This document shows positions 38,694 through 63,169 of a DNA stretch of 64,000 nt, one piece after another; within the stretch, counting starts at the first letter, position 1; every line of letters begins with the position of its first letter. The notes under the pieces were generated by a model. The model saw nothing but the letters and a program-made list of their open reading frames with translations. It was not told the DNA's origin and did not search any database. Origin of the DNA: Alcaligenes sp. SORT26 (lineage in GTDB: Bacteria > Pseudomonadota > Gammaproteobacteria > Burkholderiales > Burkholderiaceae_B); the NCBI RefSeq assembly GCF_017377875.1, contig NZ_CP070975.1, forward strand, positions 1,860,001 to 1,924,000, read 5' to 3'. A program made the position numbers and the translations under genes.

Positions 38694-38764
38694 GGTGGGT
38701 TTTTACCTGCGTTAACACAAGTGAGGCCGGTCTTTGAATGATGAGATCGGTCTCCATGAAGCCA

Positions 38765-38991
38765 CCACTTGGGTCCCTCTGCAGGGCTTGGGCTGAGAAC
38801 TTGCCGGTGCTGCGCACCGGTGCCCTTGTCAGGAGATAGCTACGGGCGCATCCTGAACTCGCGGGGTGGTTCGTCCCCCGGACGAACCACAAGCGCCCCG
38901 CTCAAACAGCAGGATGCTTATACCCCTACGCTATCTCCTGACCGCGGCAAGTACTCTGATCCGCCCAATCCCTGCAGAGGGACCCAAGTGG
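38765..38991 (-). repeat. Structured repeat, copy A (minus orientation)
   Basis: A 227-bp element bounded by a 22-bp perfect inverted repeat (38765-38786 / 38970-38991). Inside are a 12-bp stem (38829-38840 / 38930-38941), an 11-bp hairpin GTGGTTCGTCC-GGG-GGACGAACCAC and a small hairpin CCGGTGC-GCA-GCACCGG. Copies B and C have the same plan with different but still complementary stems. It starts 71 bp after the EamA gene. Confidence 0.8.
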
Positions 38992-39260
38992 TTCACAGTG
39001 ATGCATATCCACGATTCAAGCCGGTTTGCTTCCAAGATCCAGATGCTCAGAGACAAATCTCAAAGCCCCCTCTAAAAGCCCCTGGTTTACGAGTTCTCGC
39101 TACGCTCAATCACAATAGCCTTCCAATTCATCTCAACAACTTGGCCAACAACAAACCCTACCAAGCGCCAAACCGAGGATCGCTACACAGCCCCCCGTCC
39201 TCTCTACAACCAGCACTTCCTCCCACCCCAAATCGGTTTTTTTGTATTTCTCCGTTGTGA
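38992..39260. other. Spacer between repeat copies A and B
   Basis: About 270 bp with no ORF of credible composition, no SD and no hairpin of note. Nothing recognised. Confidence 0.4.
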
Positions 39261-39492
39261 GCCGCTTGGGGCCGGGTTCAGGGGCTTGGGCGATTCAGAC
39301 TGCTTGCCGCAGGCGGTGTCTTGATCCGGGGTGCAAGCACTCTGCTGTTTGAGCCCGACGCTTGTGGTTTGTCCGGGGGACAAACCACCGGGCGAGTTCA
39401 GAGTGCGCCCGGATCAAGACACCGACAAGGGCACCGATGCGCAGCATCGGCAAGTAGTCAAGCCCAAGCCCCTGAACCCGGCCCCAAGCGGC
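39261..39492 (+). repeat. Structured repeat, copy B
   Basis: A 232-bp element bounded by a 31-bp perfect inverted repeat (39261-39291 / 39462-39492). An inner 17-bp stem is at 39314-39330 / 39408-39424, carrying the apical hairpin GTGGTTTGTCC-GGG-GGACAAACCAC. The side hairpin CCGATGC-GCA-GCATCGG follows. The drawn fold is a three-way junction. Core sequence (GTTTGAGCCCGACGCTTGTG) is shared with copy C. Confidence 0.82.
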
Positions 39493-39518
39493 GTCCCTCA
39501 CCGAGACGACCAAACAAC

Positions 39519-39569
39519 AAAAAAAAGAACCGACATCTCCAACCCTGGGGTCGGGTGAGATATCGGTTC
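39519..39569 (-). terminator. Terminator of the cbb3 oxidase operon
   Basis: On the minus strand GAACCGATATCTC and GAGATGTCGGTTC (39569-39557, 39539-39527) pair over 13 bp with one G-T wobble and are followed by eight T (39526-39519). It lies about 85 bp after the stop of the cytochrome c gene. A second short hairpin GCCGGG / CCCGGC is at about 39573-39592. Confidence 0.8.
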
Positions 39570-39653
39570 AAAAGCCGGGGGCCTGTTCCCGGCGTGCTAC
39601 CGTTTCAAAACGTGCTTCTAATTATTGATTCCTTTCAAAAGCATCCCAGCGTC

Positions 39654-40244
39654 TTACTGCGCTGCAATCCAGTCCTGTAACTCCTGCTCCCCCTGCCAAG
39701 GCTGAGTACGCTCCGCACTAGCCGCACGCGCTTCAGCGACAAGTTCAGGAGTAAGCGCCTCTGCCTCATTCCCCCATTCATGGCGAATGAAATTAAACAC
39801 GGCGGCTAGCTCCGCATCACTGAACTGCTCCGCAAAAGCAGGCATTGCTCCCTGATACTGCTGCCCTTTCACCGTGATAGGCCCGTTAATGCCATGCAAC
39901 ACCAACTGAGCCAACACCTTGGGCTCGCCCTTCACCCATTCAGAGTCAGCCAAAGGGGGAAACACTCCCGGCAAACCTTGTCCCGTCGCCTGATGGCAGG
40001 CCACACAGGCATTGGCATAAAGCTGCTTGCCATCCGCAGAGGCACTGGCAGGGGCAGGAGCCAACACAGCCAACGGTCGTTGATCACCCAAGCGGGGAGA
40101 GCTATTAGGCTGAGCCGACACGATGTAGTACACCGCCCAGGCCAGCAGCGCCAAAATCACCAGAATCACAACTCGCGGAACCGGGTTGTACTGCTCATGG
40201 GGATCGGCGTTCTCGCTTTGACGATTTTGCACAGGCTTGTTCAT
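39654..40244 (-). CDS. Membrane-anchored monohaem cytochrome c (CcoP-like)
   Basis: 196 residues. One membrane anchor (VVILVILALLAWAVYYIVSA, about 27-46), a Pro/Ala linker, then a class-I cytochrome c domain with CVACH (about 83-87), the family PLADSEW and a distal Met in GAMPAF. CcoP of standard cbb3 oxidases has two haems; this has one, so it is a reduced third subunit. NPVPRVVI near the anchor recalls CcoP's N-terminal motif. It overlaps the ccoO-like gene by 4 bp and ends the operon. Confidence 0.88.
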   Translation of the reverse strand: MNKPVQNRQSENADPHEQYNPVPRVVILVILALLAWAVYYIVSAQPNSSPRLGDQRPLAVLAPAPASASADGKQLYANACVACHQATGQGLPGVFPPLADSEWVKGEPKVLAQLVLHGINGPITVKGQQYQGAMPAFAEQFSDAELAAVFNFIRHEWGNEAEALTPELVAEARAASAERTQPWQGEQELQDWIAAQ

Positions 40245-40849
40245 TCCTCGCGCTCCACGACATCAGCACTCAAGATTGGATAGACGTGCTTGAGCGACTG
40301 CAAATACACGACCAGATCCAAGGCCTCCGGACGTGCCACAACCACCTTGCCCTCTGGCGCTACACCCGGTGGCAGGCTAACAACACGCTCATCAGGCTGT
40401 ACCTGATCCGGGTCTTTCGCCTCGAACAGAAAACGATAGGGAGGCATATTGCTACCCGGCGAATACGCGCGCGGATCATACAAATGGCCCAGATGCCAAT
40501 CCTGACTAGGCTGACGCACGCCAATATTGAACAGATCCGGCCCGGTACGCATGGTGCCCAGCAAAGGCGGATCATCATAGTGATAATCCCCCGCCACAGA
40601 GGCGCGCCCCCAGCCACGGCTGGCATCAGCGACACCGGCTCCCGTGGTACTGGGCTGCTGTGTGTGGCAAGTAATACAACCATTGCCCCGATACACCGCC
40701 CGGCCACGTACTTCCTGGCTGGTATAGGGCGACAAGCCTTCCGGTGCAGGCTCGTCTTTCAACTGCAGAAAAGGCACCACAATCATGGCGGCCGTGGCCA
40801 GGGACAAGGTCACCATGGACCCGATAATCAACTTCAGTTCGTTTTCCAT
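40241..40849 (-). CDS. ccoO: cbb3-type oxidase monohaem subunit (CcoO)
   Basis: 202 residues. One N-terminal membrane segment (LIIGSMVTLSLATAAMIVVPFLQL, about 7-30), then YTSQEVRGRAVYRGNGCITCHTQQ with one CxxCH haem site and TGPDLFNIGVRQPSQDWHLGHLYDPRAYSPGSNMPPYRFLF, the CcoO signature with an axial Met in SNMPPY. It passes electrons to the catalytic subunit. It starts 4 bp after the ccoN-like gene and overlaps the cytochrome c gene by 4 bp. Confidence 0.92.
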   Translation of the reverse strand: MENELKLIIGSMVTLSLATAAMIVVPFLQLKDEPAPEGLSPYTSQEVRGRAVYRGNGCITCHTQQPSTTGAGVADASRGWGRASVAGDYHYDDPPLLGTMRTGPDLFNIGVRQPSQDWHLGHLYDPRAYSPGSNMPPYRFLFEAKDPDQVQPDERVVSLPPGVAPEGKVVVARPEALDLVVYLQSLKHVYPILSADVVEREE

Positions 40850-40853
40850 GTCC

Positions 40854-42506
40854 TCAAACCTCCAGCTCAGCAGTACGGCGCACGGCAGCCGAGCGAGACT
40901 CGGTCAAGGCGAACGCACCGGACTTCACAATCATCAGCAAGACGTGCAGGGCAAACACCAGATGGCCCAAAGTCATCAAAGCACCACCAATGGAGCGACC
41001 TTGCAGCCAGGGCATGGTGACAGCCACGGACTCCATAAAGCCACGCGTTGGATCCAGCAAGGCCAAGCCTTGCAGTACGCCACCAATGCTGAGCGTGATC
41101 ATGTACACCGCAAAGCCAGCCACCACCAGCCAGAAGTGCCAGGAGATCAAGGCTGGACGGGGCCAGGCGGTATTCAGAATGCGGGGTAAGGCAAAGTACA
41201 CCCCACCAAAAATCACCATGGTCACAAAGCCATACATGCCCAGGTGAGCATGCGCTACGGTGAAGTGTGTGAAGTGCGTAATGGAGTTCAGGGAGCGCAA
41301 GGCTTCAGCAGAACCTTGCAGGGAGGCGACGGTGTACATCATGGCGCCAAAGACGATGAACCGCAGAACCGGCGAATGACGCAACGCACTGAAGTGACCT
41401 TTCAAGGTCAAGTGCTGGTTAGCCGAGAAGGCCAGCACCGGAATCACCATCATCACGCTTTGCACGATGGACAGAGTGATCAGCCATTCAGGAATAGGGC
41501 CACCGATCAAATGGTGTGCTCCGACCTGACCGTAGAAAAAGGCCAGCGTCCAGAAACCCAGCAAGGACAAGTTGTAGGAACGTACGGGACGCCCGATGAC
41601 TTTAGGCAAGAAGTAGTAAATGGCCGCAATCGACATGGGGGTGTAGAACAGGCCCAGCACGTTATGCCCGAACCACCAGTTCATGGTGGCCTGCTCAACG
41701 CCAAAGTGCACGCCCGGAACCTTGGCAACCAGATACAGGATCGGGAACCAGAACAGTGCGGCACCGATGTACCAAACCGACACGTACAAGTGCTTGACCT
41801 TGCGTTGCGAAAGCATCAAGGCCAGTGGCATGCCGATCATCATGCCGCCAAAGGCAAACAGCACACCAATCTGCCAGGGAATTTCCAGCCACTCCAAACC
41901 AGCATTCAAACCAATGGCCAAGGCCCCGATCCCCGCGACCAGAGCCGCGTTCCAGACCAGTCCACCGACCATCACCAAACGGCCACCCAAAAGTGGGGTT
42001 TGCAGCAGGCGCGGCAGCATCCAGATTGTCAGCCCCAGCAAGCCCATCGGGGCCCAGCCATATGCAACACCGTTCAGGTGAATCGTGCGCAGACGGCCAA
42101 AGCTCAACCAGGACACATCGCCCAGGAACTCTGGCCAATGCAGTTTCAGCGAACTGATCAGACCGGCAAAAGACGCCACCACCAGCCAGACCACCGCACA
42201 GACAATCAATAAAAAAGCAGGCATGGAGCTGGAGCGGTCAGCCTGCTCGCGTGCCTCCATCTCTACAGCACTGGTTTGCTGGCCGTGGTTCTCTGCCAGA
42301 TGGTCTGCGGCAGCCAAACTGAGCGCTTGCCGTTGAGCATCACCGGCAGAAGGCTCTTCGGGCTGGCCGATCTCGCCCTTATGAAAAATAGTGCGTGCAC
42401 CACTGACGTCAGCATCGAACAGGCCCTTGCGCAAGGACCAGATAAAGGCAAAAAGCCCGGCAATCGACAGGATGAATGCGGCAAGCAAAAGCGCCGTCGG
42501 GTTCAT
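40854..42506 (-). CDS. ccoN: CcoN-like catalytic subunit with N-terminal CcoS-like domain
   Basis: 550 residues. Residues 1-45 (LLLAAFILSIAGLFAFIWSLRKGLFDADVSGARTIF) look like CcoS, normally a separate cbb3 assembly protein. A 50-residue acidic linker follows, then a haem-copper oxidase of about 12 segments: haem ligand in RTIHLNGVAYGW, CuB ligands in WWFGHNVLGLFYTP and VGAHHLIGGPIPEW, haem ligands in VAHAHLGMYGF. This is the CcoN/cbb3 branch. ATG 42506 has AGAGGA 5 nt upstream; an in-frame start at 42566 has no SD. First gene of a ccoN-ccoO-cytochrome c operon. Confidence 0.88.
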   Translation of the reverse strand: MNPTALLLAAFILSIAGLFAFIWSLRKGLFDADVSGARTIFHKGEIGQPEEPSAGDAQRQALSLAAADHLAENHGQQTSAVEMEAREQADRSSSMPAFLLIVCAVVWLVVASFAGLISSLKLHWPEFLGDVSWLSFGRLRTIHLNGVAYGWAPMGLLGLTIWMLPRLLQTPLLGGRLVMVGGLVWNAALVAGIGALAIGLNAGLEWLEIPWQIGVLFAFGGMMIGMPLALMLSQRKVKHLYVSVWYIGAALFWFPILYLVAKVPGVHFGVEQATMNWWFGHNVLGLFYTPMSIAAIYYFLPKVIGRPVRSYNLSLLGFWTLAFFYGQVGAHHLIGGPIPEWLITLSIVQSVMMVIPVLAFSANQHLTLKGHFSALRHSPVLRFIVFGAMMYTVASLQGSAEALRSLNSITHFTHFTVAHAHLGMYGFVTMVIFGGVYFALPRILNTAWPRPALISWHFWLVVAGFAVYMITLSIGGVLQGLALLDPTRGFMESVAVTMPWLQGRSIGGALMTLGHLVFALHVLLMIVKSGAFALTESRSAAVRRTAELEV

Positions 42507-42738
42507 GGTATTCCTCTGATGAGATAGGGCCGTCCCCCGCAGGGGCACGGACGAAAACACTCGCAAGGCTACCCGTCGGTACAGAGCATTCCAAGAATCA
42601 GTTAAAGCTTCAAAAACCCTATCAGTTGTCCTGTAAGCGGCGTAAATAGCGCCTTGCTTGTGCTTACAGCCCTACCCATCAGATAATAAAAAAACCACAT
42701 TTGGCGAATCAACCGTATCAGATGGAGTATCAAGTCGC
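42507..42738. promoter_or_regulatory. Divergent control region ccoN / MocR with inverted repeat
   Basis: 232 bp between divergent genes. An 8-bp inverted repeat, CTGTAAGC at 42631-42638 and GCTTACAG at 42662-42669, encloses a second stem (GGCG / GCGCC region). The tetra-to-pentamer ATCAG recurs three times (about 42621, 42678, 42718). These are candidate operator elements for the adjacent MocR protein. No FNR box TTGAT-N4-ATCAA was found. Confidence 0.4.
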
Positions 42739-44163
42739 ATGAAACTATATGAGACTCTGGCAAAAGAGCTGGCCCAGGCCATTCTGGACGGCACGGTCGC
42801 GGCGGGCGAGCGCATGCCGTCGGTGCGCCAGTTAATGGATAAGCACAAGATCAGCGCCTCGACGATTTTTCAGGCTTATTACCGTCTGGAAGCACAAGGG
42901 CTGATACAGGCACGCCCACGTTCGGGCTATTACGTGTGCTCTCATCTGGCCCCACATACGCTGGAAGCCGACACCGCGTCCCAGCCCCCCTTGCAGGCCA
43001 CCAACGTCAACAATAGCGACCTGATCATGGCGATTTTGCAATCCAGTTCAGAGCGCTCCGTTGCTCCCTTGGGATCAGCATTTCCCAGCCCCCTGCTCTT
43101 TCCACTGGAGCGATTAGGCCGCTTTTTATCAGCCAGTCTCAAACAGCAAGATCCTTGGGCCAGCCTGGATGATCTGACCCAGGGGCATGCCGCCCTGCGT
43201 CGGCAGATTGCCTTGCGTTATTTGGCTCAAGGCATGGCTATCAACGCTAACGATATTGTGATTACCAATGGCGCACTGGAAGCCCTGAATCTCTGCCTGG
43301 CCGCCGTCACCCAGCCGGGCGATATTGTGCTGGTGGAGTCACCCACTTTCTATGCTGCCTTGCAGTCTTTGGAGCGCATGAAACTGCAGGCCCTGGAAGT
43401 GCCCACTCACCCACGCGAGGGCATCGATCTGGATGCGTTGGAGCAAGCCATCGTGCGCCACTCCCCCAAAGCCTGCTGGTTGATGACCAACTTCCAGAAC
43501 CCATTGGGCAGCCTGATGCCGGACGCCAAAAAAGCACAATTGGTAGAGCTATTGGCCCGTCACGAAATCCCCTTGATCGAGGACGATGTGTACGGCGAGC
43601 TGTACTTCGATACCGAACGCCCACGACCCGCCAAAGCCTTTGATCGCCAGGGTTTGGTGATGCACTGCTCCTCCTTTTCCAAAACCCTGGCACCCGGCTA
43701 TCGGGTAGGCTGGGCTGTGCCGGGACGCTATACCCGCGAAGTCGCCAAAGCCAAGCTGACCACAACACTGACCTCTCCCGTTCCTACTCAACTGGCTCTG
43801 GCCAGCTATCTGGAAAAAGGAGCCTACGACCAGCATCTGCGTCGCCTGCGCACCCAACTGAAAAATCAGTATGAACAGTTCTCCAAAGCCCTGGGACGCT
43901 ACTTCCCGACAGGCACCCGCGCCACACGCCCCGAAGGCGGCTACTTTCTCTGGGTAGAGCTGGAAAAAAGCGTACAGACGCTGGACTTGCATCGTCAGGC
44001 CTTGTCACAAGGCATCAGTCTGGCACCGGGTTCTATTTTCTCTACCACCCAAAACTACAGCCATTGTTTACGCCTGAATTTTGGTCATCCCTGGACCGAT
44101 CAAAGCAGCAATGCCTTGGAAATACTGGGTAATCTGTGCAGGCCATTGCCACTTAAAAAATAA
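42739..44163 (+). CDS. MocR-type regulator (GntR HTH plus aminotransferase domain)
   Basis: 474 residues. GntR winged helix at 1-75 (LYETLAKELAQAILDGTVAAGERMPSVRQLMDKHKISASTIFQAYYRLEAQGLIQARPRSGYYV) and an aminotransferase fold from about 110, with PLP lysine in HCSSFSKTLAPGYRVGW. FQNPLGSLMPDAKKAQL and EDDVYGELYF are standard motifs. An in-frame start at 42658 is less likely than the ATG at 42739. Divergent from the cbb3 operon; the target is unknown. It differs in sequence from the dnfR regulator. Confidence 0.88.
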   Translation: MKLYETLAKELAQAILDGTVAAGERMPSVRQLMDKHKISASTIFQAYYRLEAQGLIQARPRSGYYVCSHLAPHTLEADTASQPPLQATNVNNSDLIMAILQSSSERSVAPLGSAFPSPLLFPLERLGRFLSASLKQQDPWASLDDLTQGHAALRRQIALRYLAQGMAINANDIVITNGALEALNLCLAAVTQPGDIVLVESPTFYAALQSLERMKLQALEVPTHPREGIDLDALEQAIVRHSPKACWLMTNFQNPLGSLMPDAKKAQLVELLARHEIPLIEDDVYGELYFDTERPRPAKAFDRQGLVMHCSSFSKTLAPGYRVGWAVPGRYTREVAKAKLTTTLTSPVPTQLALASYLEKGAYDQHLRRLRTQLKNQYEQFSKALGRYFPTGTRATRPEGGYFLWVELEKSVQTLDLHRQALSQGISLAPGSIFSTTQNYSHCLRLNFGHPWTDQSSNALEILGNLCRPLPLKK

Positions 44164-44283
44164 AGATCCGTAGGGTTGATCGATAGGAAATAAAAATCGC
44201 TAATAGATTGTTATGTATAGACAAAAACCTCATGATGAAACGGTTTTACTGCAGAAAAAAAACCGACTATTCAGGAGTTTTTG

Positions 44284-44709
44284 ATGTCGCATACCTTACG
44301 TAGCAAACTGATTGGCGTCTGGAAACTGGTGTCGTTTGATTTTGTCCCCTCGGATGGCTCTCCTTCCTATCCAGGTCTAGGCCCCAACCCGATCGGCATG
44401 CTGATTTATACGGGAACAGGCTACATGGCCGCCCAACTGGGCAGCAGTGACAGAACCGTGCAAGACCCCTGCCAAAGCCTGATAGACAGCTACCTGGCTT
44501 ATGCCGGTACGTTTGAAGTCGATGAGCAAGCCCACTGCGTGACCCATTTTGTGGATATGTCCTTGTACCCGGACTGGGTGGACGTGCCCCAGCCAAGACT
44601 GGCGCGATTTAGCGAAGGAGCACTGGAACTGATCACCCGTGACCCCGTGGTCGTCGGTGGCAAGTTGGGCATGGGCACCTTGTTATGGCACCGGGCCAGC
44701 CCGACCTAA
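44284..44709 (+). CDS. Lipocalin-like domain protein
   Basis: 141 residues of the lipocalin-like (AtaL/PF13924-type) family: LIGVWKLVSFDF at the start, PSYPGLGPNPIGMLIYTGTGYMAAQL in the middle and VTHFVDMSLYPDWVDVPQPRLARF further on. Predicted small beta-barrel without signal peptide; biological role not known. AGGAG six bases upstream of the ATG at 44284. It follows the MocR gene by 120 bp and may form its own unit. Confidence 0.8.
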   Translation: MSHTLRSKLIGVWKLVSFDFVPSDGSPSYPGLGPNPIGMLIYTGTGYMAAQLGSSDRTVQDPCQSLIDSYLAYAGTFEVDEQAHCVTHFVDMSLYPDWVDVPQPRLARFSEGALELITRDPVVVGGKLGMGTLLWHRASPT

Positions 44710-44764
44710 GCATACGCATCAGGGACGTACAGCAAGCACACGGCCAGCCACGACGCTGGCCATT

Positions 44765-45688
44765 TCAATTCTGCGCAACAGAGTCCAGCGCATTCAAGAA
44801 GTAATCCACAATCGCATGCGCGCGCCTATCCTTGCGCATGGCCAACGACAGGGGAATCGTGAATTGGCGCTGCTGCGGGTCCACCGCGATCATCTGCCCC
44901 TTTTCCACCCAACGGGCTGCGACATGCTCGGGCAAGAAGCCGATGTACTCACCAGTCAGAATCAAAAAAGCGATGCCTTCCCGATCACTGGCCGTTGCCA
45001 CACAATTCAAATCCTGATGCTGGGCAATGGCTTCCGAACTCATTCGATACGCAGGAGCAATAGCAGCCGCAGCGCGCAAATCCGCAGGTGGTACCGTCCC
45101 TTTTTGAGCGGCACGGAACAAGGGATGCTCCCAGGAGCAATACAGAAAATAAGGCTCGGCATACAGCGTGCGGTACTCCAAGCCGCTAAGCGCATTGGTT
45201 TCAGGCAGCACGCCCATGTGCAAACGGTCCTCCAACAAGCCACGCTCTATCTCCCCCGGCGTACTCATGCTGATATGCACACGCACCGCATCACTGTTTT
45301 GCCGCAGGGTGCGCAAGGCCGACGTAATGTGCATATGTGGCTGCGAGATCAGGCTATTCATCAACCCTATATTCAAATCTCCCCTCAAACTGGAATGCAG
45401 TTGATTAACCTCGCTACGGAAGTTCTCCACCGCCGCCATCAAGGTTTCACTGGCCCGCAGCACTTGCCGGCCTTCTTCCGTCAAGGCAAAACCCGCCCTG
45501 CCACGCTGGCACAACCGTATACCCCCCAGGCGCTTTTCCAGATCGCTCATGTGCAAGCTGATGGCCGAGCGCGTAATCCCCAGCACACCCTCTGCAGCCG
45601 AAAAGCTGCCCACTTGCGCCACCGTTCTGAACACACGCAGCAGGCGCAAATCAAAATCGGAAACCTGCAAGAGTCCTTTCAGATGCAT
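44765..45688 (-). CDS. LysR-type transcriptional regulator
   Basis: 307 residues. The winged helix is at about 10-70 (FDLRLLRVFRTVAQVGSFSAAEGVLGITRSAISLHMSDLEKRLGGIRLCQRGRAGFALTEEG) and the periplasmic-binding-like effector domain is about 95-300. The ATG at 45688 is chosen over an upstream in-frame start at 45742, which would reach into the promoter of the divergent transaminase gene. The 100-bp shared gap suggests it controls that gene. The inducer is unknown. Confidence 0.88.
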   Translation of the reverse strand: MHLKGLLQVSDFDLRLLRVFRTVAQVGSFSAAEGVLGITRSAISLHMSDLEKRLGGIRLCQRGRAGFALTEEGRQVLRASETLMAAVENFRSEVNQLHSSLRGDLNIGLMNSLISQPHMHITSALRTLRQNSDAVRVHISMSTPGEIERGLLEDRLHMGVLPETNALSGLEYRTLYAEPYFLYCSWEHPLFRAAQKGTVPPADLRAAAAIAPAYRMSSEAIAQHQDLNCVATASDREGIAFLILTGEYIGFLPEHVAARWVEKGQMIAVDPQQRQFTIPLSLAMRKDRRAHAIVDYFLNALDSVAQN

Positions 45689-45788
45689 ATAGGTGAGTAA
45701 AACAATAAGTGAAGTTGAATAAAAACGTATTTTACTCAACAACTTAGCTCCCTACACTGGGGGTATTCACCGCCTTGAGGAGACCGAC

Positions 45789-47135
45789 GTGAACTCACCC
45801 TACTTTGCGCCCCAGCAGATCGCCAGTGAACTCAATCTCCAGTCCCACTGGATGCCCTTTACCGCGAACCGGCACTTTCAGCAGGACCCACGCCTGGTCG
45901 TGAAAGCCGAAGGCAACTGGCTGTACGACCAGGACGGCCGCCAGATTTTTGACAGCCTGTCCGGGCTTTGGACTTGCGGTGCAGGCCACGCCCGCCATGA
46001 GATCCAGGCAGCCGTGCATCGCCAACTGGGGCAACTGGACTACTCCCCCGCCTTTCAGTTTGGACACCCAGCCGCATTTCAACTGGCCGACAAGCTGACT
46101 CAGCTCACCCCTGAAGGCCTGGACCACGTGTTTTTCACCAACTCCGGCTCTGAATGTACGGACACCGTCGTCAAAATGGTGCGTGCCTACTGGCGCATCA
46201 AAGGCCAGGCCACCAAAACCCGCCTGATTGGCCGAGCCCGCGGCTACCACGGCGTCAACGTGGCTGGGACCAGCCTGGGTGGCATAGGCGGCAACCGCAA
46301 AATGTTTGGCCAGTTGATGGATGCCGACCACTTGCCCCACGTACTGCAAGCAGACTGCGCCTTCACCCACGGCCAGCCTGAAACCGGCGGTCTTACTTTG
46401 GCCGATGAACTGCTTAAACTGATCGAACTGCACGATGCCAGTACCATCGCCGCTGTATTTGTAGAGCCCGTCTCCGGCTCGGCAGGCGTACTGGTTCCCC
46501 CTACCGGCTACCTGCAACGCCTGCGTCAGATTTGCGATCAGCACAACATCCTGCTGGTATTTGATGAAGTCATTACCGGCCTGGGTCGTTTGGGCACCCA
46601 CACCGGAGCCGAATACTTTGGCGTCACACCCGATGTCATGACCATGGCCAAGCAACTGACCAACGGCGCCATTCCCATGGGCGCGGTCATTGCCAGCAAA
46701 GAGATCTACCAAACCTTCATGGGCCAGGACTTGCCACTGCACGCCGTCGAATTCAGCCACGGCCATACCTACTCCGCCCACCCCGTGGCCTGCGCCGCCG
46801 GTCTGGCCGCACTGGAATTGCTGGAACAAGACAATCTGCTGCAACGCTCCGCCGAACTGGCGCCACACTTTGAACAAGCCCTGCACCAACTGCGCGACTG
46901 CCCCAACGTCATCGACATCCGTAACTGCGGTTTAGCGGGAGCCATTCAACTGGCACCCCGCAATGGCGACCCCGCCATCCGTCCCTTTGAAGCAGGCCTG
47001 CAACTATGGAAACAAGGTTTTTACGTACGCTTTGGCGGCGACACCTTGCAATTTGGCCCGCCCTTCACCAGCACACCCGCCCAACTCAGCTCACTCTTTG
47101 ATGCGGTGGGCGGCGTCTTGAAGCAACTGGCCTGA
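45789..47135 (+). CDS. Omega-amino acid:pyruvate (beta-alanine) aminotransferase
   Basis: 448 residues, class-III PLP aminotransferase. NLQSHWMPFTANRHFQQDPRLVVKAEG at the start is characteristic of omega-amino acid:pyruvate transaminases; VFFTNSGSECTDTVVKMVRAYWR, FDEVITGLGRLG (PLP Asp) and TMAKQLTNGAIPMGAV (PLP Lys) complete the fold. It would transfer the amino group of beta-alanine or similar omega-amines to pyruvate. The start is GTG at 45789 with GAGGAG 6 nt upstream. Divergent LysR gene is the likely regulator. Confidence 0.88.
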   Translation: MNSPYFAPQQIASELNLQSHWMPFTANRHFQQDPRLVVKAEGNWLYDQDGRQIFDSLSGLWTCGAGHARHEIQAAVHRQLGQLDYSPAFQFGHPAAFQLADKLTQLTPEGLDHVFFTNSGSECTDTVVKMVRAYWRIKGQATKTRLIGRARGYHGVNVAGTSLGGIGGNRKMFGQLMDADHLPHVLQADCAFTHGQPETGGLTLADELLKLIELHDASTIAAVFVEPVSGSAGVLVPPTGYLQRLRQICDQHNILLVFDEVITGLGRLGTHTGAEYFGVTPDVMTMAKQLTNGAIPMGAVIASKEIYQTFMGQDLPLHAVEFSHGHTYSAHPVACAAGLAALELLEQDNLLQRSAELAPHFEQALHQLRDCPNVIDIRNCGLAGAIQLAPRNGDPAIRPFEAGLQLWKQGFYVRFGGDTLQFGPPFTSTPAQLSSLFDAVGGVLKQLA

Positions 47136-47295
47136 CACGCCACACAGGGCGGCCAAACACCGGCCGCCCACACCCCCCCTTCACTCGTTGCAAATAGAAA
47201 CCTTAACTTTGTCTGCAGGCAGAACCCGCCCCCTGCTCCAAGGACCACAAACGCGCCATAATACGAGCTTTGCTCCACAAGAATTATCCAGCGCC

Positions 47296-48132
47296 ATGAG
47301 TACATCCACCTCGTCCACCTTTGCTCAGGCTCCTATCGGCCTGTTTGACTCGGGCGTGGGCGGCCTGTCCATCTGGCGCGCCCTGCGCCAGTCCCTGCCC
47401 AACGAGAACCTGCTGTATCTGGCCGACTCACACTGCGCCCCTTACGGCGACCGCTCCCCCGAATGGATCGTGGAACGCACCCAGCGCATGGCACAAGTGC
47501 TGGTCGACCAAGGCTGCAAAGCGCTCGTCATCGCCTGCAACACCGCCACCCTGGTTGCCGCCCCCACCTTGCGGGCCCAACTCAACATCCCCATCATCGC
47601 CATCGAACCGGCCATCAAACCGGCGGCTGCCTTAAGCCGCAGCCGTAGCATCGCCCTGATGGCCACCAGCCGCACTCTGGACAGCAGCGGCCTGCAAAAC
47701 CTGATTGAGCGCTACGCCAGCGACATAGAAGTCATCCGCATTCCCTGCCCCGGCCTGGCCGACCGCGTCGAAGCCCTGCAACTGTCAGGCCCGGAAATCG
47801 AAGCAGAACTCCAGGCACGCTTGGCCCCGGCCCTGCAAAGCCAAGCCGACACACTCGTACTGGGCTGCACCCACTACCCCTTCCTGCGCCCCACCATCGA
47901 AGCCATCAGCGGCTCGCGCTTCCACATTCTGGAACCCTCCTTCGCCGTCGCCGCCCAAGTCCACCGCCGCCTGGAACAAGCGAACTGCCTGAATACACAA
48001 ATACAAACAGGCAACAGCGCCTTCATCAGCAGCGCCCCCATGGAGCAAGCCAGAAAAGTCATCCAGGCACTGACCGGACTGACCGAGCCGACCATGCTGG
48101 CATTCCCGACACAGCCGCTAACCACTCTGTAA
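47296..48132 (+). CDS. murI: Glutamate racemase
   Basis: 278 residues. MurI makes D-glutamate for peptidoglycan. The two catalytic cysteines are in VIACNTAT and LGCTHYP; GLFDSGVGGLSI and LADSHCAPYGDRSPEWI are family motifs. The frame is open to 47188, but ATG 47296 gives a normal length. It stands alone, 160 bp after the transaminase gene; downstream is the repeat-rich 1.2-kb gap. Confidence 0.95.
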   Translation: MSTSTSSTFAQAPIGLFDSGVGGLSIWRALRQSLPNENLLYLADSHCAPYGDRSPEWIVERTQRMAQVLVDQGCKALVIACNTATLVAAPTLRAQLNIPIIAIEPAIKPAAALSRSRSIALMATSRTLDSSGLQNLIERYASDIEVIRIPCPGLADRVEALQLSGPEIEAELQARLAPALQSQADTLVLGCTHYPFLRPTIEAISGSRFHILEPSFAVAAQVHRRLEQANCLNTQIQTGNSAFISSAPMEQARKVIQALTGLTEPTMLAFPTQPLTTL

Positions 48133-48270
48133 AACCCAGCCGTCCTCAATCTCCCGATGTATCCAACAAGAGCAGCTTGAATTGGCTGCTCGATCCGACT
48201 GAGCTTTGCCTCCGACTACCCAACTGCGGGCATCACCACTCACCGACTACGCGCAGCCACACCTCCTCAC

Positions 48271-48534
48271 TGACGTGGTGACGTGGTGACGTGGTGACGT
48301 GGTGACGTGGTGACGTGGTGACGTGGTGACGTGGTGACGTGGTGACGTGGTGACGTGGTGACGTGGTGACGTGGTGACGTGGTGACGTGGTGACGTGGTG
48401 ACGTGGTGACGTGGTGACGTGGTGACGTGGTGACGTGGTGACGTGGTGACGTGGTGACGTGGTGACGTGGTGACGTGGTGACGTGGTGACGTGGTGACGT
48501 GGTGACGTGGTGACGTGGTGACGTGGTGACGTGG
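48271..48534. repeat. 33 perfect copies of an 8-bp tandem repeat (TGACGTGG)
   Basis: TGACGTGG repeated 33 times without a mismatch over 264 bp, preceded by CCTCAC and followed by TGGCTTTTAAAACC. As 8 is not a multiple of 3, every frame reads through a 24-bp cycle and gives spurious ORFs (HHVTTSPR on the minus strand). Perfect identity points to recent expansion by slippage. The 139 bp between murI and the array holds nothing recognised. Confidence 0.97.
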
Positions 48535-48535
48535 T

Positions 48536-48573
48536 GGCTTTTAAAACCCTCCTCCCGGACGGTTTTAAAAGCC
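48536..48573 (+). terminator. 13-bp inverted repeat after the tandem array
   Basis: GGCTTTTAAAACC (48536-48548) and GGTTTTAAAAGCC (48561-48573) are perfectly complementary with a 12-nt spacer. It could be the terminator of murI displaced by the growing repeat array, but lacks a clean T-run after the stem. Confidence 0.4.
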
Positions 48574-48662
48574 AGCCCAAACAACAAGTCCCAGCCATCA
48601 CGATTCAAACCAGCAGTCTGCACAAACAAGAATTCCGGGCGTCACTCTACGACCCGTTGAGA

Positions 48663-48898
48663 GCTGCTCGGGGTGCAGGCACAGGGGGCGCAGGGCGAGT
48701 CAGACTACTTGCCGCGGTCGGAGGGTCAATCGGGGATGCAAGCGGCCTGCTGTTTGAGCCCGACGCTTGTGGTTTGTCCGGGGGACAAACCACCGGGCGA
48801 GTTCAGGCTGCGCCCCGATTGACCCTCCGACAAGGGCACCGACGCGCAGCGTCGGCAAGTAGTCCGCCCCAGCCCCCTGTGCCTGCACCCCGAGCAGC
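48663..48898 (+). repeat. Structured repeat, copy C
   Basis: A 236-bp element bounded by a 27-bp perfect inverted repeat (48663-48689 / 48872-48898). A 12-bp stem GACTACTTGCCG / CGGCAAGTAGTC lies inside it, then an 18-bp stem (48718-48735 / 48813-48830) carrying GTGGTTTGTCC-GGG-GGACAAACCAC, and the side hairpin CCGACGC-GCA-GCGTCGG. Same plan as copies A and B. Confidence 0.82.
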
Positions 48899-55910: not shown

Positions 55911-58900
55911 TTACCACTGGTAGCCAACACCCACTGCGCCGCCATAATCACCGCGCGAGGTGGTATTGCCCGAGAGCTTGTAGACCCATTTACCGTTATC
56001 GGTAATGCCGGAGAAGCCAATAGCCATACCGGACTCTCCACGCCAGGTGCCACCGGCCATGGACATCATGTGTTTGCCCGGCAAATAAGCCTGAGGCAGC
56101 GACGCTGTTGCCATTGCGGCAGCCACACCTGCACTTAATCGGTTATCCAGACGATTGATATCGTGGCGAATATTGTTGATCTGGCCTTGCAGATTGCCCG
56201 CAACCTGATTCAACTGGCTCACGTTCACCGCATCGGTATCATTGATGCCCGCCGCCACATTAGTAATGTGCTTGCCGGACATATTGATGCCGTTCTCGTT
56301 GATGATCGGGCCACCGTTATTGATCTGAATTTCATCGGCCTGAACATTCACCGCCGTAATGGAATTGACCGTCACATCTTGAGCCAGCGATACCTTGATA
56401 TCGGCACCCACGGTCTGGCCTGCATCATTGACCCGGTCCGTCTTGGAGATCACGATGTTGTCGCCTTCAACAAAGCCCACCGTGTTGCCATTGTGGATAG
56501 GTGTACCGTCGCCGGAGCCATTGTTGCCGCCACCAGAGCCAGGGCCATTGCCATTGGAACCACCGTTGTTGCCACCGTCCTTGCCATCCGTCGGGGCTTC
56601 AACATTCCAGTGCATGCTGTCCAGAACATCTTTCAAGGATGTGTGCTGACCACCGTTGTAGGCAAAGGAGCCGTTTCCATCCAGGCCAATGAAGGACTCG
56701 ATAGGCTGGAGCTGTCCGTAATTCACGGCATCCGTCGGATTGCGACCGGCGGCCACATTGGTAATGCGCATATCACCTGCGTTGATGCCTGCCAGGGTAA
56801 TGCTGGGGCCATTGTTGATGGTCAGGCCGGTGTTACCCAGATGTACGTCATTGCCTACCGCAACACCGGCGTTGTTGATGACGGTATCGCCGGTCTTCAG
56901 GCTGCCATCAGCCCCCAGATCGATGTCCTTGTTCAACTTGACTTCAAGCTGCCCATCATCATCGGTCCCGGTCTGCTCAACCGTGATGTTCTTATCCCCT
57001 GCAAACGTCACTTGGCCATTTGGACCGATGTTGGCGCTATTACCGTCAGTATCCGTCACGTTCCAGCCTGCGCTGGCTACATCGCTGACTCGCTTGAGCT
57101 GGTCTTCCGTTGCCGCCTGGCCGCTGGTGTAATTGTCCGGATCCCAGGTGAGATTGGTCAGGCCACCAATTCGGCCCGTATCACCATTGATCGTGACCGG
57201 GTTCGCTCCGCCCACCACTACCTGCGTGCTGCTTATGGCCGTGCTATTACCGGCCGCATCTGCCACGGTGATCGCACCTGCACCCACTGTGGTCGTGTCA
57301 CCAGCGGCATTGCTCACCGTGGTGCCTGCTGCTGTCGTGGCGGTCTTGTTGCCTGCACCATCATCCACCGTCAGACCATCGTTGTTGACCAAGGTGTTGC
57401 CTGTGGTCAGGCTGCCATCCGCACCCAGATCAATGTCTTTGTTCAGATCGAAAACCAGATCCGTACCATCACGCGTGATGTTGATATTGCCGTCCGTGTT
57501 GCTGAAGTCCACCGAAGCACCCGGCTTCACGTTCTCGGCAGCACCACCATTAGCGCTGACGTTCCAGCCTGCATTGGCAATGTCCGAGACCTCTTTCAAC
57601 TGCGACACATTCACAGCATCGGTATCATCCGTGCCAGCATCCAGATTGGTGATCTTCTTGCCACCCATATTGATGCCGTCGCCGTTGATCACCGGACCAC
57701 CGTTATTAATGGTGATGCTGTTCAGATCGGTCAGGTTCTGAGCCATGACCAGGTTCAACTTGTTGCCGTCGCTATCAACGCGCAAGTTGGCACCGGTGGA
57801 TTCTTCGCCTTCGGCCAGTTCACCTGAAATGGTCAAAGGTGTGTTGTCGCCCAAGGTCTTGGCAATGGTGTTGCCGGTATTGCCTGCAAAGCTCAAGCCA
57901 TCGGCCTGGGTAGCGACTTCGTTGCCCTTGTAAGTGACCTCACCCGTGTTGTTGACTACAAAGTTGTCACCCAGGCGGGTTTCACCCTGAACGGTCAGGT
58001 TATTGGTGGTGATGCTATCGCCCTTGACTACCGTATCACCGACAGTGACGCTGTCGCCGTTGATCACCGTATCGCCCACGGTGATGCTGTTGCCAACTGT
58101 CAGATCATTAGCCAGATTGAAGGCCAGATCCGTGCCATCACGTGTGATGTCGATATTGCCGTCGGTATTGCTGAAGTCCACCGAAGCGCCAGGCTTCACG
58201 TTCTCGGCAGCACCACCATTGGCGCTGACGTTCCAGCCTGCATTGGCAACATCAGAGACCTCTTTCAACTGCGATACATTCACAGCATCGGTATCGTCCG
58301 TGCCAGCATCCAGATTGGTGATCTTCTTGCCACCCATATCGATGCCGTCGCCATTGATCACCGGACCACCGTTATTGATGGTGATGCTGTTCAGATCTGT
58401 CAGGTTCTGAGCCATGACCAGGTTCAACTTGTTGCCGTCGCTATCGACGCGCAGGTTGGCGCCCGTGGAGACTTCACCCGCTGCCAGTTCGCCAGACAGC
58501 GTCAACGGTGTGTTGTCACCCAAGGTCTTGGCAATGGTGTTGCCGGTATTGCCTGCAAAGCTCAAGCCATCAGCCTGAGTGGCGACTTCGTTGCCCTTGT
58601 AGATAACATCGCCGTTGTTATTAACCACAAAGCTGTCACCCAGGCGGGTTTCGCCCTGAACGGTCAGGTTATTGGTGGTGATGCTATCGCCATTGACTAC
58701 CGTGTCACCTATCGTGACGCTGTCGCCATTGATGACTGTATCGCCTACGGTAATGCTGTTGCCCACCGTCAGATCATCGGCCAGATTGAAGGCCAGATCA
58801 GTCCCGGTACGAGTAACGGTGATGTTGCCATCGTCATTACTGAAGTCCACCGAACCACCCGGCTTCACGTTCGCAGTGGCGTCACCATTGGCACTCACAT

Positions 58901-61883: not shown

Positions 61884-63169
61884 CTCTGTTCCTGATCCTT
61901 TAAGGAATACTTCTTGAATGCAAAGTTGGTGTGAGTGGGGTTGAAGCTGTCTTGAACGCACAAAGGTGCCGCCCCCTCCCACGGGGGCTGGACGGAGGGG
62001 GGAGCAATCAGATAGCCCTGGACGGCGTGCACGCCTGCCTCGACGCTCAACTGGTAATCCAGGGCTGTCTCTATTCCTTCGGCGATGACGTATTGGCTGA
62101 TGCCGCGTGAGGCATGAACCCAGGAATTCAGGGCAGCGATGCCGTCCTTGTCCCATGCCTGATGCACAAGGGCCTTATCGATTTTTATGATGTGAGGACG
62201 CACCTGCCGGGCCAGATCCAGGGTGTTGAACCCCGCCCCGATGTCATCAATGGCTACTTTGCAGCCCAGCTTTCGCAAGGTGCGAAGCAGGCTGGCCGCC
62301 GCCTCCTGATCAAAAACCGCCGCGGTTTCTGTAATCTCCAGGGTCAAGCGACGTGCCAGTTGCGGGTCCGTGTTCAGTACCGCAATGAGCAATCTCCACC
62401 AGGGCGCAGACTGCAAAGACAAGGGGGAAATGTTGCAGGCAAGGTGGATATCCGGATTTCGTTCCAGAATCTGCACAGCCGCCCAAAGGACACTGGCATC
62501 CAATCGTTCCGTGCAGTGCAAACGCTCTATCGCTTGGACCACCAGGGCGCAAGACGCGGGCTGGACGCGTTCATCCGCCCCTCCCCAGCGCAACAGCAGC
62601 TCGTAATACAGAATCTGCTGATGATTCTCGACCAACACAACGGGCTGGAATGACAGGGCCACCTTCTCGTCCCGCATGTCGGCAAAGAAACGGCTTGCCA
62701 AGGCCATGTCATTGCGGGTCTGCGCGCAAACAGGGGGCTGGACTTCGGAAAAGGCAATCGTGCTGGCCAGCGAATGCAGATGGGAAAGACAAACGGGTTG
62801 GTCGACCGAGGCCTCTACCCAGGCCAGTACGGCATTCACAAGGATGCTGTCCGAGCCGCATTGGACAGGCTCATAGCACAGCGCCGCTTTGACGCGTTCC
62901 AGGAACAGGTCCTTGTCAAACTGGGAAGGCAAGCGGCAGTCGCTCAGGCTGATCAGCACCGCGTGATCGAGCACCAGGATGTCGTCGCGCACCACGCCAT
63001 AAGGGCGCAGCCGCTCCTGGATAGCGGACAAAAAGGCTTGTCGAAACAGGTGTGCGTCGTAGGCCTGGGCAAGCGACTCGGCGCTGCGCAGGCCCAACAG
63101 CAGATAACTGTTTGAAGGCGTAACTTGCTGCAACCAGCAAGACAGGAACTCTACCGACGCCGCGCCCAT
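61880..63169 (-). CDS. EAL-domain cyclic-di-GMP phosphodiesterase
   Basis: 429 residues. The N-terminal 170 residues resemble no named sensor. The EAL domain is about 180-410: YYELLLRW (E-x-L), CNISPLSL (metal Asn), LTLEITETA, AIDDIGAGFNTL (DD pair), HIIKIDKALV (Lys), VIAEGIET and VQGYLIA. The metal and catalytic residues of active EAL enzymes are present, so it should degrade c-di-GMP. GTG 63196 is an alternative start. It leads the adhesion operon, overlapping the adhesin start by 4 bp, an unusual direct pairing of PDE and adhesin. Confidence 0.9.
   Translation of the reverse strand: MGAASVEFLSCWLQQVTPSNSYLLLGLRSAESLAQAYDAHLFRQAFLSAIQERLRPYGVVRDDILVLDHAVLISLSDCRLPSQFDKDLFLERVKAALCYEPVQCGSDSILVNAVLAWVEASVDQPVCLSHLHSLASTIAFSEVQPPVCAQTRNDMALASRFFADMRDEKVALSFQPVVLVENHQQILYYELLLRWGGADERVQPASCALVVQAIERLHCTERLDASVLWAAVQILERNPDIHLACNISPLSLQSAPWWRLLIAVLNTDPQLARRLTLEITETAAVFDQEAAASLLRTLRKLGCKVAIDDIGAGFNTLDLARQVRPHIIKIDKALVHQAWDKDGIAALNSWVHASRGISQYVIAEGIETALDYQLSVEAGVHAVQGYLIAPPSVQPPWEGAAPLCVQDSFNPTHTNFAFKKYSLKDQEQR

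Follow-up and report, generated by a model that had tools for sequence, protein, structure and literature searches.

The stretch of 64,000 nucleotides from Alcaligenes sp. SORT26 analysed here (the window) contains three copies of a structured repeat, which raises the question of whether they are RNA genes of the host, mobile elements or palindromes kept up at the DNA level. We checked the window sequence and located all three copies where the first-pass annotation had placed them (Table 1). Each is a giant hairpin: a long outer stem leads to a three-way junction, from which a short side hairpin branches off, and the main arm contains a GA/GA internal loop, which is conserved, and ends in an apical loop. 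The perfect outer stems of 22, 31 and 27 bp described by the annotation were borne out, 22 bp being the outermost run of copy 1 (23 with an A-T pair just beyond). The side hairpin reads CCGGTGC, CCGATGC and CCGACGC in copies 1 to 3, with exact partners in all of them, and the reported pair swap in the apical stem is present as C-G in copy 1 and T-A in copies 2 and 3. Folding z-scores against dinucleotide shuffles were -12.7, -14.8 and -14.5 for copies 1, 2 and 3. Copies 1 and 2 lie head to head, their cores 321 bp apart, an arrangement absent from the annotation; no gene was called in the spacer between them using a home-made gene caller.

Table 1. Coordinates of the repeat copies and their parts in the window.
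Feature	Position	Strand	Remarks
Copy 1 of the repeat	38764..38992	- (selected strand)	194 bits
Copy 1 outer stem arms	38764-38796 / 38960-38992		33 nt, 94% complementary
Copy 1 core	38789-38966	-	
Spacer separating copies 1 and 2	38993..39260	no strand	
Copy 2	39261..39492	+ (selected strand)	206 bits; head-to-head partner is copy 1
Copy 2 outer stem, 5' arm	39261..39291	+	31 bp, copy-specific sequence
Copy 2 conserved 178-nt core (covariance model R1)	39288..39465	+	
Copy 2 internal loop CTGTTTGA	39345..39352	+	conserved; faces GAGTT at 39394-39398
Copy 2 apical hairpin	39364..39388	+	11 bp, loop GGG
Copy 2 side hairpin CCGATGC-GCA-GCATCGG	39434..39450	+	belongs to three-way junction
Copy 2 outer stem, 3' arm	39462..39492	+	pairs with 5' arm, 31/31
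Copy 3	48663..48898	+	205 bits; single, unpaired copy
Copy 3 outer stem arms	48663-48689 / 48872-48898	+	27/27 paired

A covariance model search of the whole genome yielded 29 strong copies scoring 175-206 bits, after exclusion of a 33-bit match at 2016111, with a core match of 178 nt in 25 of them and of 175-180 nt in the remaining ones. The annotation had named three copies only, with pairing unconserved in relatives, as the case against its reading; the 29 copies, and the pairing kept in other genomes and genera, show otherwise. Across the 178-nt core, 98.0% of the 1707 paired cells pair, compared to 33-43% after sliding, both sides change in 42 of the 59 core pairs (0/500 shuffles), and the covariation score is 0.603 versus 0.172 (0/500 shuffles). 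The core thus covaries beyond controls, as a structured non-coding RNA does, and the covariation extends across genera and families. We then counted G·U and A·C cells at core pairs with a Watson-Crick majority, dropping pair columns with under half Watson-Crick cells, and obtained ratios of 48:2 in this genome, 72:9 in other genera, 92:12 in the relative G005 and 28:1 in G008; without the majority rule this genome gives 84 G·U and 3 A·C, 27 of the G·U coming from one column pair. This excess of G·U over A·C implies that one strand is selected, read as a single strand, and this strand is most likely RNA, although single-stranded DNA could produce the same bias. Judged by energy, folding favours the forward strand in 23 of 29 copies here, 16 of 22 in G008, 28 of 31 in G005 and 30 of 43 other copies. 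G·U counts in the energy-based folds were mixed (144:129 here, 90:94 in G008, 225:142 in G005 and 215:237 in the others), so strand assignment by folding energy was set aside and the fixed-pair counts were used.

Within this genome, all copies less than 1 kb apart are head to head (6/6). Eighteen of the 29 copies sit between convergent genes (11 were not called so), and a terminator faces the element at 260 bp or less in 17 of 29 cases, compared to 47 of 300 random stretches, while no terminator facing the copy was found for the other 12. We saw no fixed gene neighbour around the copies. A 3'-UTR element of the nearer downstream gene was rejected, because that gene lies on the other strand in 22 of 29 cases and the strand picked out by the G·U bias is the opposite one. 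The site of copies 1 and 2 is common to five relatives, and in G009 the pair is present in collapsed form; the orthologous site of copy 3 retains remnants only in G001 and G002 and nothing in G009. The orthologous places in these three genomes yielded no clean empty site for the window copies, and with remnants in two genomes and absence in the third, loss and absence are not always separable. The relative G006 has zero copies of the family.

Searches with covariance models were positive for 58 of the 151 host-family genomes, 72 of the 399 genomes from the order (18%) and 22 of the 369 from the class, with nothing outside the class but one partial, doubtful match; model R1 hits 3 of 349 order genomes, the present one included, and the wider spread depends on model R2. 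Judged from coordinates, neighbours less than 1 kb apart are head to head in 6 of 6 cases in A. faecalis AU14, 5 of 5 in G008, 11 of 12 in G005 (one partial) and 6 of 7 in other genera; we regard the arrangement as shown for the host family. In the order and class, among the matches listed, such neighbours comprise two head-to-head cases (G294, G801) and two with a shared orientation (G459, G709). Head-to-head units are themselves repeated in G709 (84% over 645 bp) and G650 (93% over 537 bp), and three of five distant genomes compared have single-hairpin repeats of 242-349 bp, without pairs. Most distant relatives retain the internal loop CTGTTTGA opposite GAGTT, and roughly two in three of the distant loci inspected have a second 3' hairpin with a pseudoknot. 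To assess the latter, 34 of the 37 hairpins from 55 distant loci were aligned (L254, L263 and L298 were excluded); the pseudoknot alone has 83.8% of its cells paired versus 62.2 when shuffled and scores 0.534 versus 0.174 (0/500), and two of five measures were unremarkable (24/500 and 119/500 shuffles).

Support for the mobile-element suggestion of the first-pass annotation comes from one relative, G005, in which the head-to-head pair is the interior of a transposon-like unit of about 733 bp with ends GGTTCTTCG and CGAAGAACC. We tested 18 of the 32 fetched G005 loci for target duplications, 14 (including L169) remaining outside the test. An exact 8-bp duplication flanks 5 of the 18 units (13 have none), compared to 2.9% of 306 swapped flanks, and a duplication matching at least 7 of 8 positions flanks 10 of 18, compared to 12%. 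Both flanks are of one kind, A-rich or T-rich, in 15 of the 18; under a stricter control with swaps within A-rich or T-rich flanks, 9 of 121 were exact, and the permutation p-values are modest (0.018 for exact duplications, 0.020 for at least 7 of 8). Because the script misplaced the right ends of L308 and L310, these two units are among the misses; on visual inspection, L308 is flanked by CTTTTCTG left and right, and the untallied L169 has an exact duplication. We consider these 8-bp duplications likely to be genuine. An intrinsic terminator adjoins 11 of the 18 units, compared to 3 of 500 random places, which shows insertion at terminator T-runs in this relative. G005 was the one genome tested for both traits that define a MITE, and it has them: terminal inverted repeats, with ends in 18 units, and target duplication. 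Among the 29 loci of the present genome, matches to the G005 ends with one mismatch occur in 8, none bracketing a copy, and no MITE with these ends was recognised. When the G005 unit was compared to other Alcaligenes genomes, coverage among the matches listed barely exceeded the cores.

We found no transposase with ends of the G005 type. The ISL3 family makes 8-bp duplications and has GG[C/T]TCTT-like ends, and the G005 unit resembles it in both respects. Transposases of the ISL3 type were found at full length in G007 (5) and G003 (1) alone, and their ends, read by eye, are different; G005 has just a match of 23 bits. ISL3 as the mover, or the unit as an ISL3-derived MITE, is thus unsupported, since no ISL3 transposase whose ends match the unit was found in G005. 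A spacer gene as the autonomous form was likewise rejected, the L150 and L147 spacers holding genes unrelated to each other; by eye these are a recombinase-like fragment plus a nuclease-like gene, and a toxin-antitoxin-like pair.

The annotation had recognised no known terminator, REP or IS in the repeat, and the tests made here agree. In the 29 flanks of this genome, inspection by eye showed no T-run immediately after the outer stem on its 3' side, such as an intrinsic terminator would require. A known RNA family was ruled out with Rfam 15, which gave no match at curated score: there were 0 matches across the window, 0 at E-values up to 1 for 38700-39560, and in 21 loci of relatives just a tRNA and microRNA matches under the curated scores. 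In plasmids, two queries had no match and the hits of a third, in 4 records, were confined to a stretch of 55-63 bp; one query had no match in phages, and searches of viral contigs gave 0 and 1 matches. Searches of an open-access library, judged mostly from their listings, gave no account of the repeat. Correia/NEMIS, ERIC and RUP elements are bacterial MITEs with RNA-forming palindromes, and the present family resembles them in being non-coding, intergenic, hairpin-forming and present in many copies, and, in G005, in having terminal repeats and target duplication. It differs in having large hairpins with a three-way junction, of which each unit contains a divergent pair, and in its strand-specific covariation, its 3' pseudoknot in relatives and its insertion at terminator T-runs. 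REP/REPIN sequences mobilised with RAYT are also palindromic intergenic repeats, and GTAG-type REPs adjoin the copies in G057 (by eye); REPs measure 20-40 bp (PMC3733652), in contrast with a core of 178 nt and a complex fold. The Bordetella repeats BRE and Bor-1/Bor-2 are also repeated, mostly intergenic and hosted by Alcaligenaceae. BRE is about 90 bp and often tandem (Hot 2011, PMC3110155) and Bor-2 is a 167-bp intergenic model of 17 sequences with a predicted structure (Cozzuto 2008, PMC2267715); the comparison with the present family covers these published lengths and the tandem habit, in which BRE differs.

The annotation had read the covariation as selection on structure, which holds for the core and is less secure for the outer stems. 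There the G·U to A·C ratio is 27:19 in this genome, 23:13 in G008, 58:17 in G005 and 53:22 elsewhere, sequences under 280 nt (2 of 43 other-genus rows) being left out. Between orthologous copies one base pair has been inserted on both arms of the outer stem (31 versus 32 bp), which suggests arm-to-arm copying of DNA as a simpler explanation than selection, and stem blocks have been exchanged (by eye); the perfection of the outer stems is probably maintained in part by such copying. All of the pairing might then be attributed to palindrome correction between arms, without selection, the loops being conserved by recent spread or gene conversion. The weak strand bias of the outer stems in this genome, the double insertion and the swapped blocks all agree with this, but arm correction predicts neither the 48:2 ratio of the core nor covariation across genera and families; for the core the explanation is already hard to hold, and we regard it as very improbable. 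A functional fold could also be that of a DNA single strand which a transposase recognises, or which arises during replication, as in REP/RAYT or integron attC, with no RNA involved. G·T is tolerated better than A·C in DNA too, so the strand bias alone cannot tell RNA from DNA, and the REP neighbours in G057 fit such an element. Yet the G005 units have the ends and the likely 8-bp duplications of a double-strand element, and the halves of the unit use opposite strands, which is not the pattern of single-strand elements of the IS200 kind; the pseudoknot covariation requires a single strand, although it fits DNA as well. We consider this explanation distinctly unlikely.

A host origin deserves more weight, although we still hold it to be unlikely: the copies would be small-RNA genes of a multi-copy regulatory or protein-binding family, and the mobility in G005 would reflect capture by an unrelated small transposon. 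The strand-specific covariation, the conservation of unpaired loops, the sharing of the copy 1/copy 2 site by five relatives and the failure to see the G005 ends at copies of the present genome are all expected from such genes. They are harder to reconcile with the lack of a constant gene neighbour, with a relative devoid of copies, with orthologous places where copies are missing or broken, and with other genomes holding repeated units with shared ends.

On balance the repeats look like an apparently undescribed kind of mobile, RNA-shaped genome passenger, and we think it somewhat probable that they belong to a MITE-like mobile element in which two predicted structured RNAs diverge. The repeats would be the halves, often left single, of a non-coding element whose full unit bears a structured RNA gene twice, in divergent orientation. 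The selected strand would be transcribed, and a cut-and-paste type transposase acting in trans would move the unit into the T-run just past the terminator of a gene, so that the host is spared. The folded RNA may serve the mobility or persistence of the element rather than a host gene, because no constant neighbour accompanies the copies and some orthologous places lack them or hold broken ones. A bolder version, which we find rather unlikely, is a class-wide selfish lineage whose sole product is RNA, each unit having two divergent copies of one giant pseudoknotted RNA without which it would not move or persist; this RNA might, for instance, be the scaffold or the regulator of a trans-acting transposase; this would be a kind of mobile non-coding RNA so far unknown.

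A structured repeat that reaches about 30 strong copies in a genome and is missing from Rfam leaves a hole in the catalogue of bacterial RNAs. Its hairpins allow two causes of perfect pairing, strand selection and arm-to-arm DNA copying, to be separated in one molecule, which matters wherever covariation is taken as proof of function. If the RNA serves the element, the family would be a test case for a protein-free mobile element aimed just behind the terminators of genes.

The repeat copies in the window were found exactly where the first-pass annotation had placed them, and its stems, side hairpin and apical change held in all three; each copy folded 12.7 to 14.8 standard deviations below its shuffles. 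An Rfam search of the repeats matched no family. The copy count and covariance model proposed in that annotation yielded 29 strong matches in the SORT26 genome (one contig of 4,083,727 bp in which the window spans 1,860,001-1,924,000; copy 2 matched it in 32 rows, counting partial and reverse-strand ones) to R1, a covariance model built from these 29 copies; a 30th match (33 bits), overlapping copy L009, is excluded from this number. The fold is established in the core, the conserved inner part of the repeat, which matched over 178 nt in 25 of the 29 copies and over 175-180 nt in the others: 98.0% of its 1707 cells were paired, both sides changed at 42 of 59 pairs, the covariation score was 0.603 versus 0.172 in shuffles, and pairing fell to 33-43% once partners were slid by one to three columns.

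Coordinates of the repeat copies and of other features
Feature	Location	Strand	Remark
Copy 1	window 38764-38992	minus	
Copy 2	window 39261-39492	plus	
Copy 3	window 48663-48898	plus	
Tandem array of short repeats (GTGACGTG-like)	window 48233-48545		upstream of copy 3
Very long ORF with repeats	window 55911-62156	minus	presumably a trimeric autotransporter adhesin, judging from its repeats
Copy cluster	SORT26 (G000:C1) 1.60-2.40 Mb		perhaps the replication terminus region
ISL3-transposase-like weak match	G000:C1:489093-489329		22-25 bit
Mobile unit inside or beside a putative CRISPR repeat array	L308 (G005:C1:2961382-2962393)		by eye
Head-to-head copies enclosing a tyrosine-recombinase-like fragment and a nuclease-like gene	L150 3175-4785 (G079)		1.6 kb apart; by eye

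At pairs in mostly Watson-Crick columns of the core, the G·U:A·C ratio was 48:2 in SORT26 (26:2 by distinct column and type), 72:9 in other genera, and 92:12 and 28:1 in the relatives G005 and G008. For the latter three ratios the sequences had been aligned to the model, and the pair structure was taken from RNAalifold; both steps somewhat favour G·U. Since an A·C mismatch reads as G·U on the opposite strand, constraint acts on one strand, plus for copies 2 and 3 and minus for copy 1. This strand may act as RNA or as single-stranded DNA, and both fit the sequence. For the outer stems the ratios were 27:19 (SORT26), 23:13 (G008), 58:17 (G005) and 53:22 (other genera). Their arms matched their own partner and not those of other copies (median score 32 versus 8 when swapped, 29 copies), and orthologues of copy 2 are separated by one base pair inserted on both arms. 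Whole stem blocks were exchanged between orthologous copies (by eye), as expected from recombination between copies, and DNA-level arm-to-arm copying probably helps to keep the outer stems perfect.

A DNA-level search recovered the repeat in 9 of 10 Alcaligenes genomes and in none of 31 others, and a pattern scan returned 23 stretches, with A. pakistanensis, Pigmentiphaga, Candidimonas and Allopusillimonas among the organisms named. R1 matched 58 of 151 genomes of the host family (23 of 43 genera) but, across the order, no more than 3 of 349. Using R2, a broader model from 58 sequences to which a few of the searched genomes contributed, we obtained matches in 72 of the 399 order genomes, spread over 36 of 159 genera, in 22 of the 369 genomes of a class sample, spread over 19 of 272 genera, and in 11 of the 398 genomes of a phylum sample; ten of these eleven belong to the class, two of them only at E ~3e-4, and the eleventh, outside it, has a partial and doubtful match. 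SORT26 is included in all of these tallies, and searches with more than 40 genomes used stricter filters, by which weak matches were lost.

Among copies compared in five distant genomes, head-to-head units recurred in G709 (84% over 645 bp) and G650 (93% over 537 bp), their orientation being read by eye, and in the other three genomes the repeats were single hairpins of 242-349 bp. Of 54 distant loci, 48 carried the internal-loop motif (TGTYTGA-like, then CGAGTT), and a motif search of 55 recovered a second hairpin, of a shared type, on the 3' side in 37; the loop of this hairpin forms a four-pair pseudoknot with a motif immediately upstream of it. In 34 of the 37 hairpins, these pairs were formed in 83.8% of cells versus 62.2% when shuffled, the pseudoknot score was 0.534 versus 0.174 (0 of 500 shuffles as high) and slid partners paired in at most 47%; two further measures were unremarkable (24 and 119 of 500 shuffles). 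GTAG-tagged REP-like palindromes flank the copies at L140-L146 of genome G057, with one lying 3' of each copy at a similar distance (by eye).

Within the family the arrangement is established: in SORT26 all 6 pairs less than 1 kb apart lie head to head, as do neighbours in A. faecalis AU14 (6 of 6), G008 (5 of 5) and G005 (11 of 12, one copy partial) and 6 of 7 pairs in other genera, where a further head-to-head pair, the seventh of that kind, is spaced 1.6 kb. Among the matches listed for distant genomes, neighbours were head to head in two (G294, G801) and in the same direction in two (G459 and G709, the latter also with its head-to-head unit). By a home-made gene caller, 18 of the 29 SORT26 copies lie between convergent genes, the remaining 11 having no such call, and a terminator faces the copy within 260 bp in 17 of 29 versus 47 of 300 random stretches. 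The cluster in the table holds 16 of the 29 copies in a fifth of the chromosome, unusual at ~0.02 by independent sites in a post hoc comparison. Simple tandem repeats adjoin several copies.

Mobility features are established in G005, whose copies align as a repeated ~733-bp unit with two different halves and the ends GGTTCTTCG and CGAAGAACC. The 18 units tested for duplications (from 32 fetched loci) comprised 10 of 725-736 bp, 6 of 490-634 bp and 2 with a misplaced right end. Match coordinates in addition suggest units that have lost one hairpin. Duplications of 8 bp were exact in 5 of 18 and matched at 7 or more of 8 positions in 10 of 18, versus 2.9% and 12% of 306 freely swapped flanks. 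Because G005 flanks are A- or T-runs, we also applied a stricter control in which flanks were exchanged only with others of the same kind; 9 of 121 such swaps were exact, and the permutation p values were 0.018 (exact matches) and 0.020 (7 or more matching positions). Units lay directly at an intrinsic terminator in 11 of 18 cases versus 3 of 500 random places. The ISL3-like match was seen in all 10 of the Alcaligenes genomes searched, is interrupted by stops in 9 and is probably not a working transposase.

Among the matches listed in other Alcaligenes genomes, the G005 unit was covered little beyond the core, and no SORT26 copy was found bracketed by G005-type ends; the window copies therefore either are ancient remnants of such units or spread by some other route. 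Copies are missing or broken at some orthologous places and none was found in the relative G006, both of which speak for a passenger. At the site of copies 1 and 2, the relative G009 (L234) has one short hairpin instead of the head-to-head pair, as if a deletion had occurred between the two side hairpins.

The repeat had no description in the open-access literature searched. The nearest published repeats, compared by length and tandem habit, are BRE and Bor-1/Bor-2 of Bordetella; if Bor-2 is the present repeat, one genus was already on record in 2008. Overall, we lean somewhat towards reading the repeats as a non-coding mobile unit that carries a divergent pair of structured RNAs, in which both RNAs would be transcribed, a mover would act on the unit and the folded RNA would serve the element.
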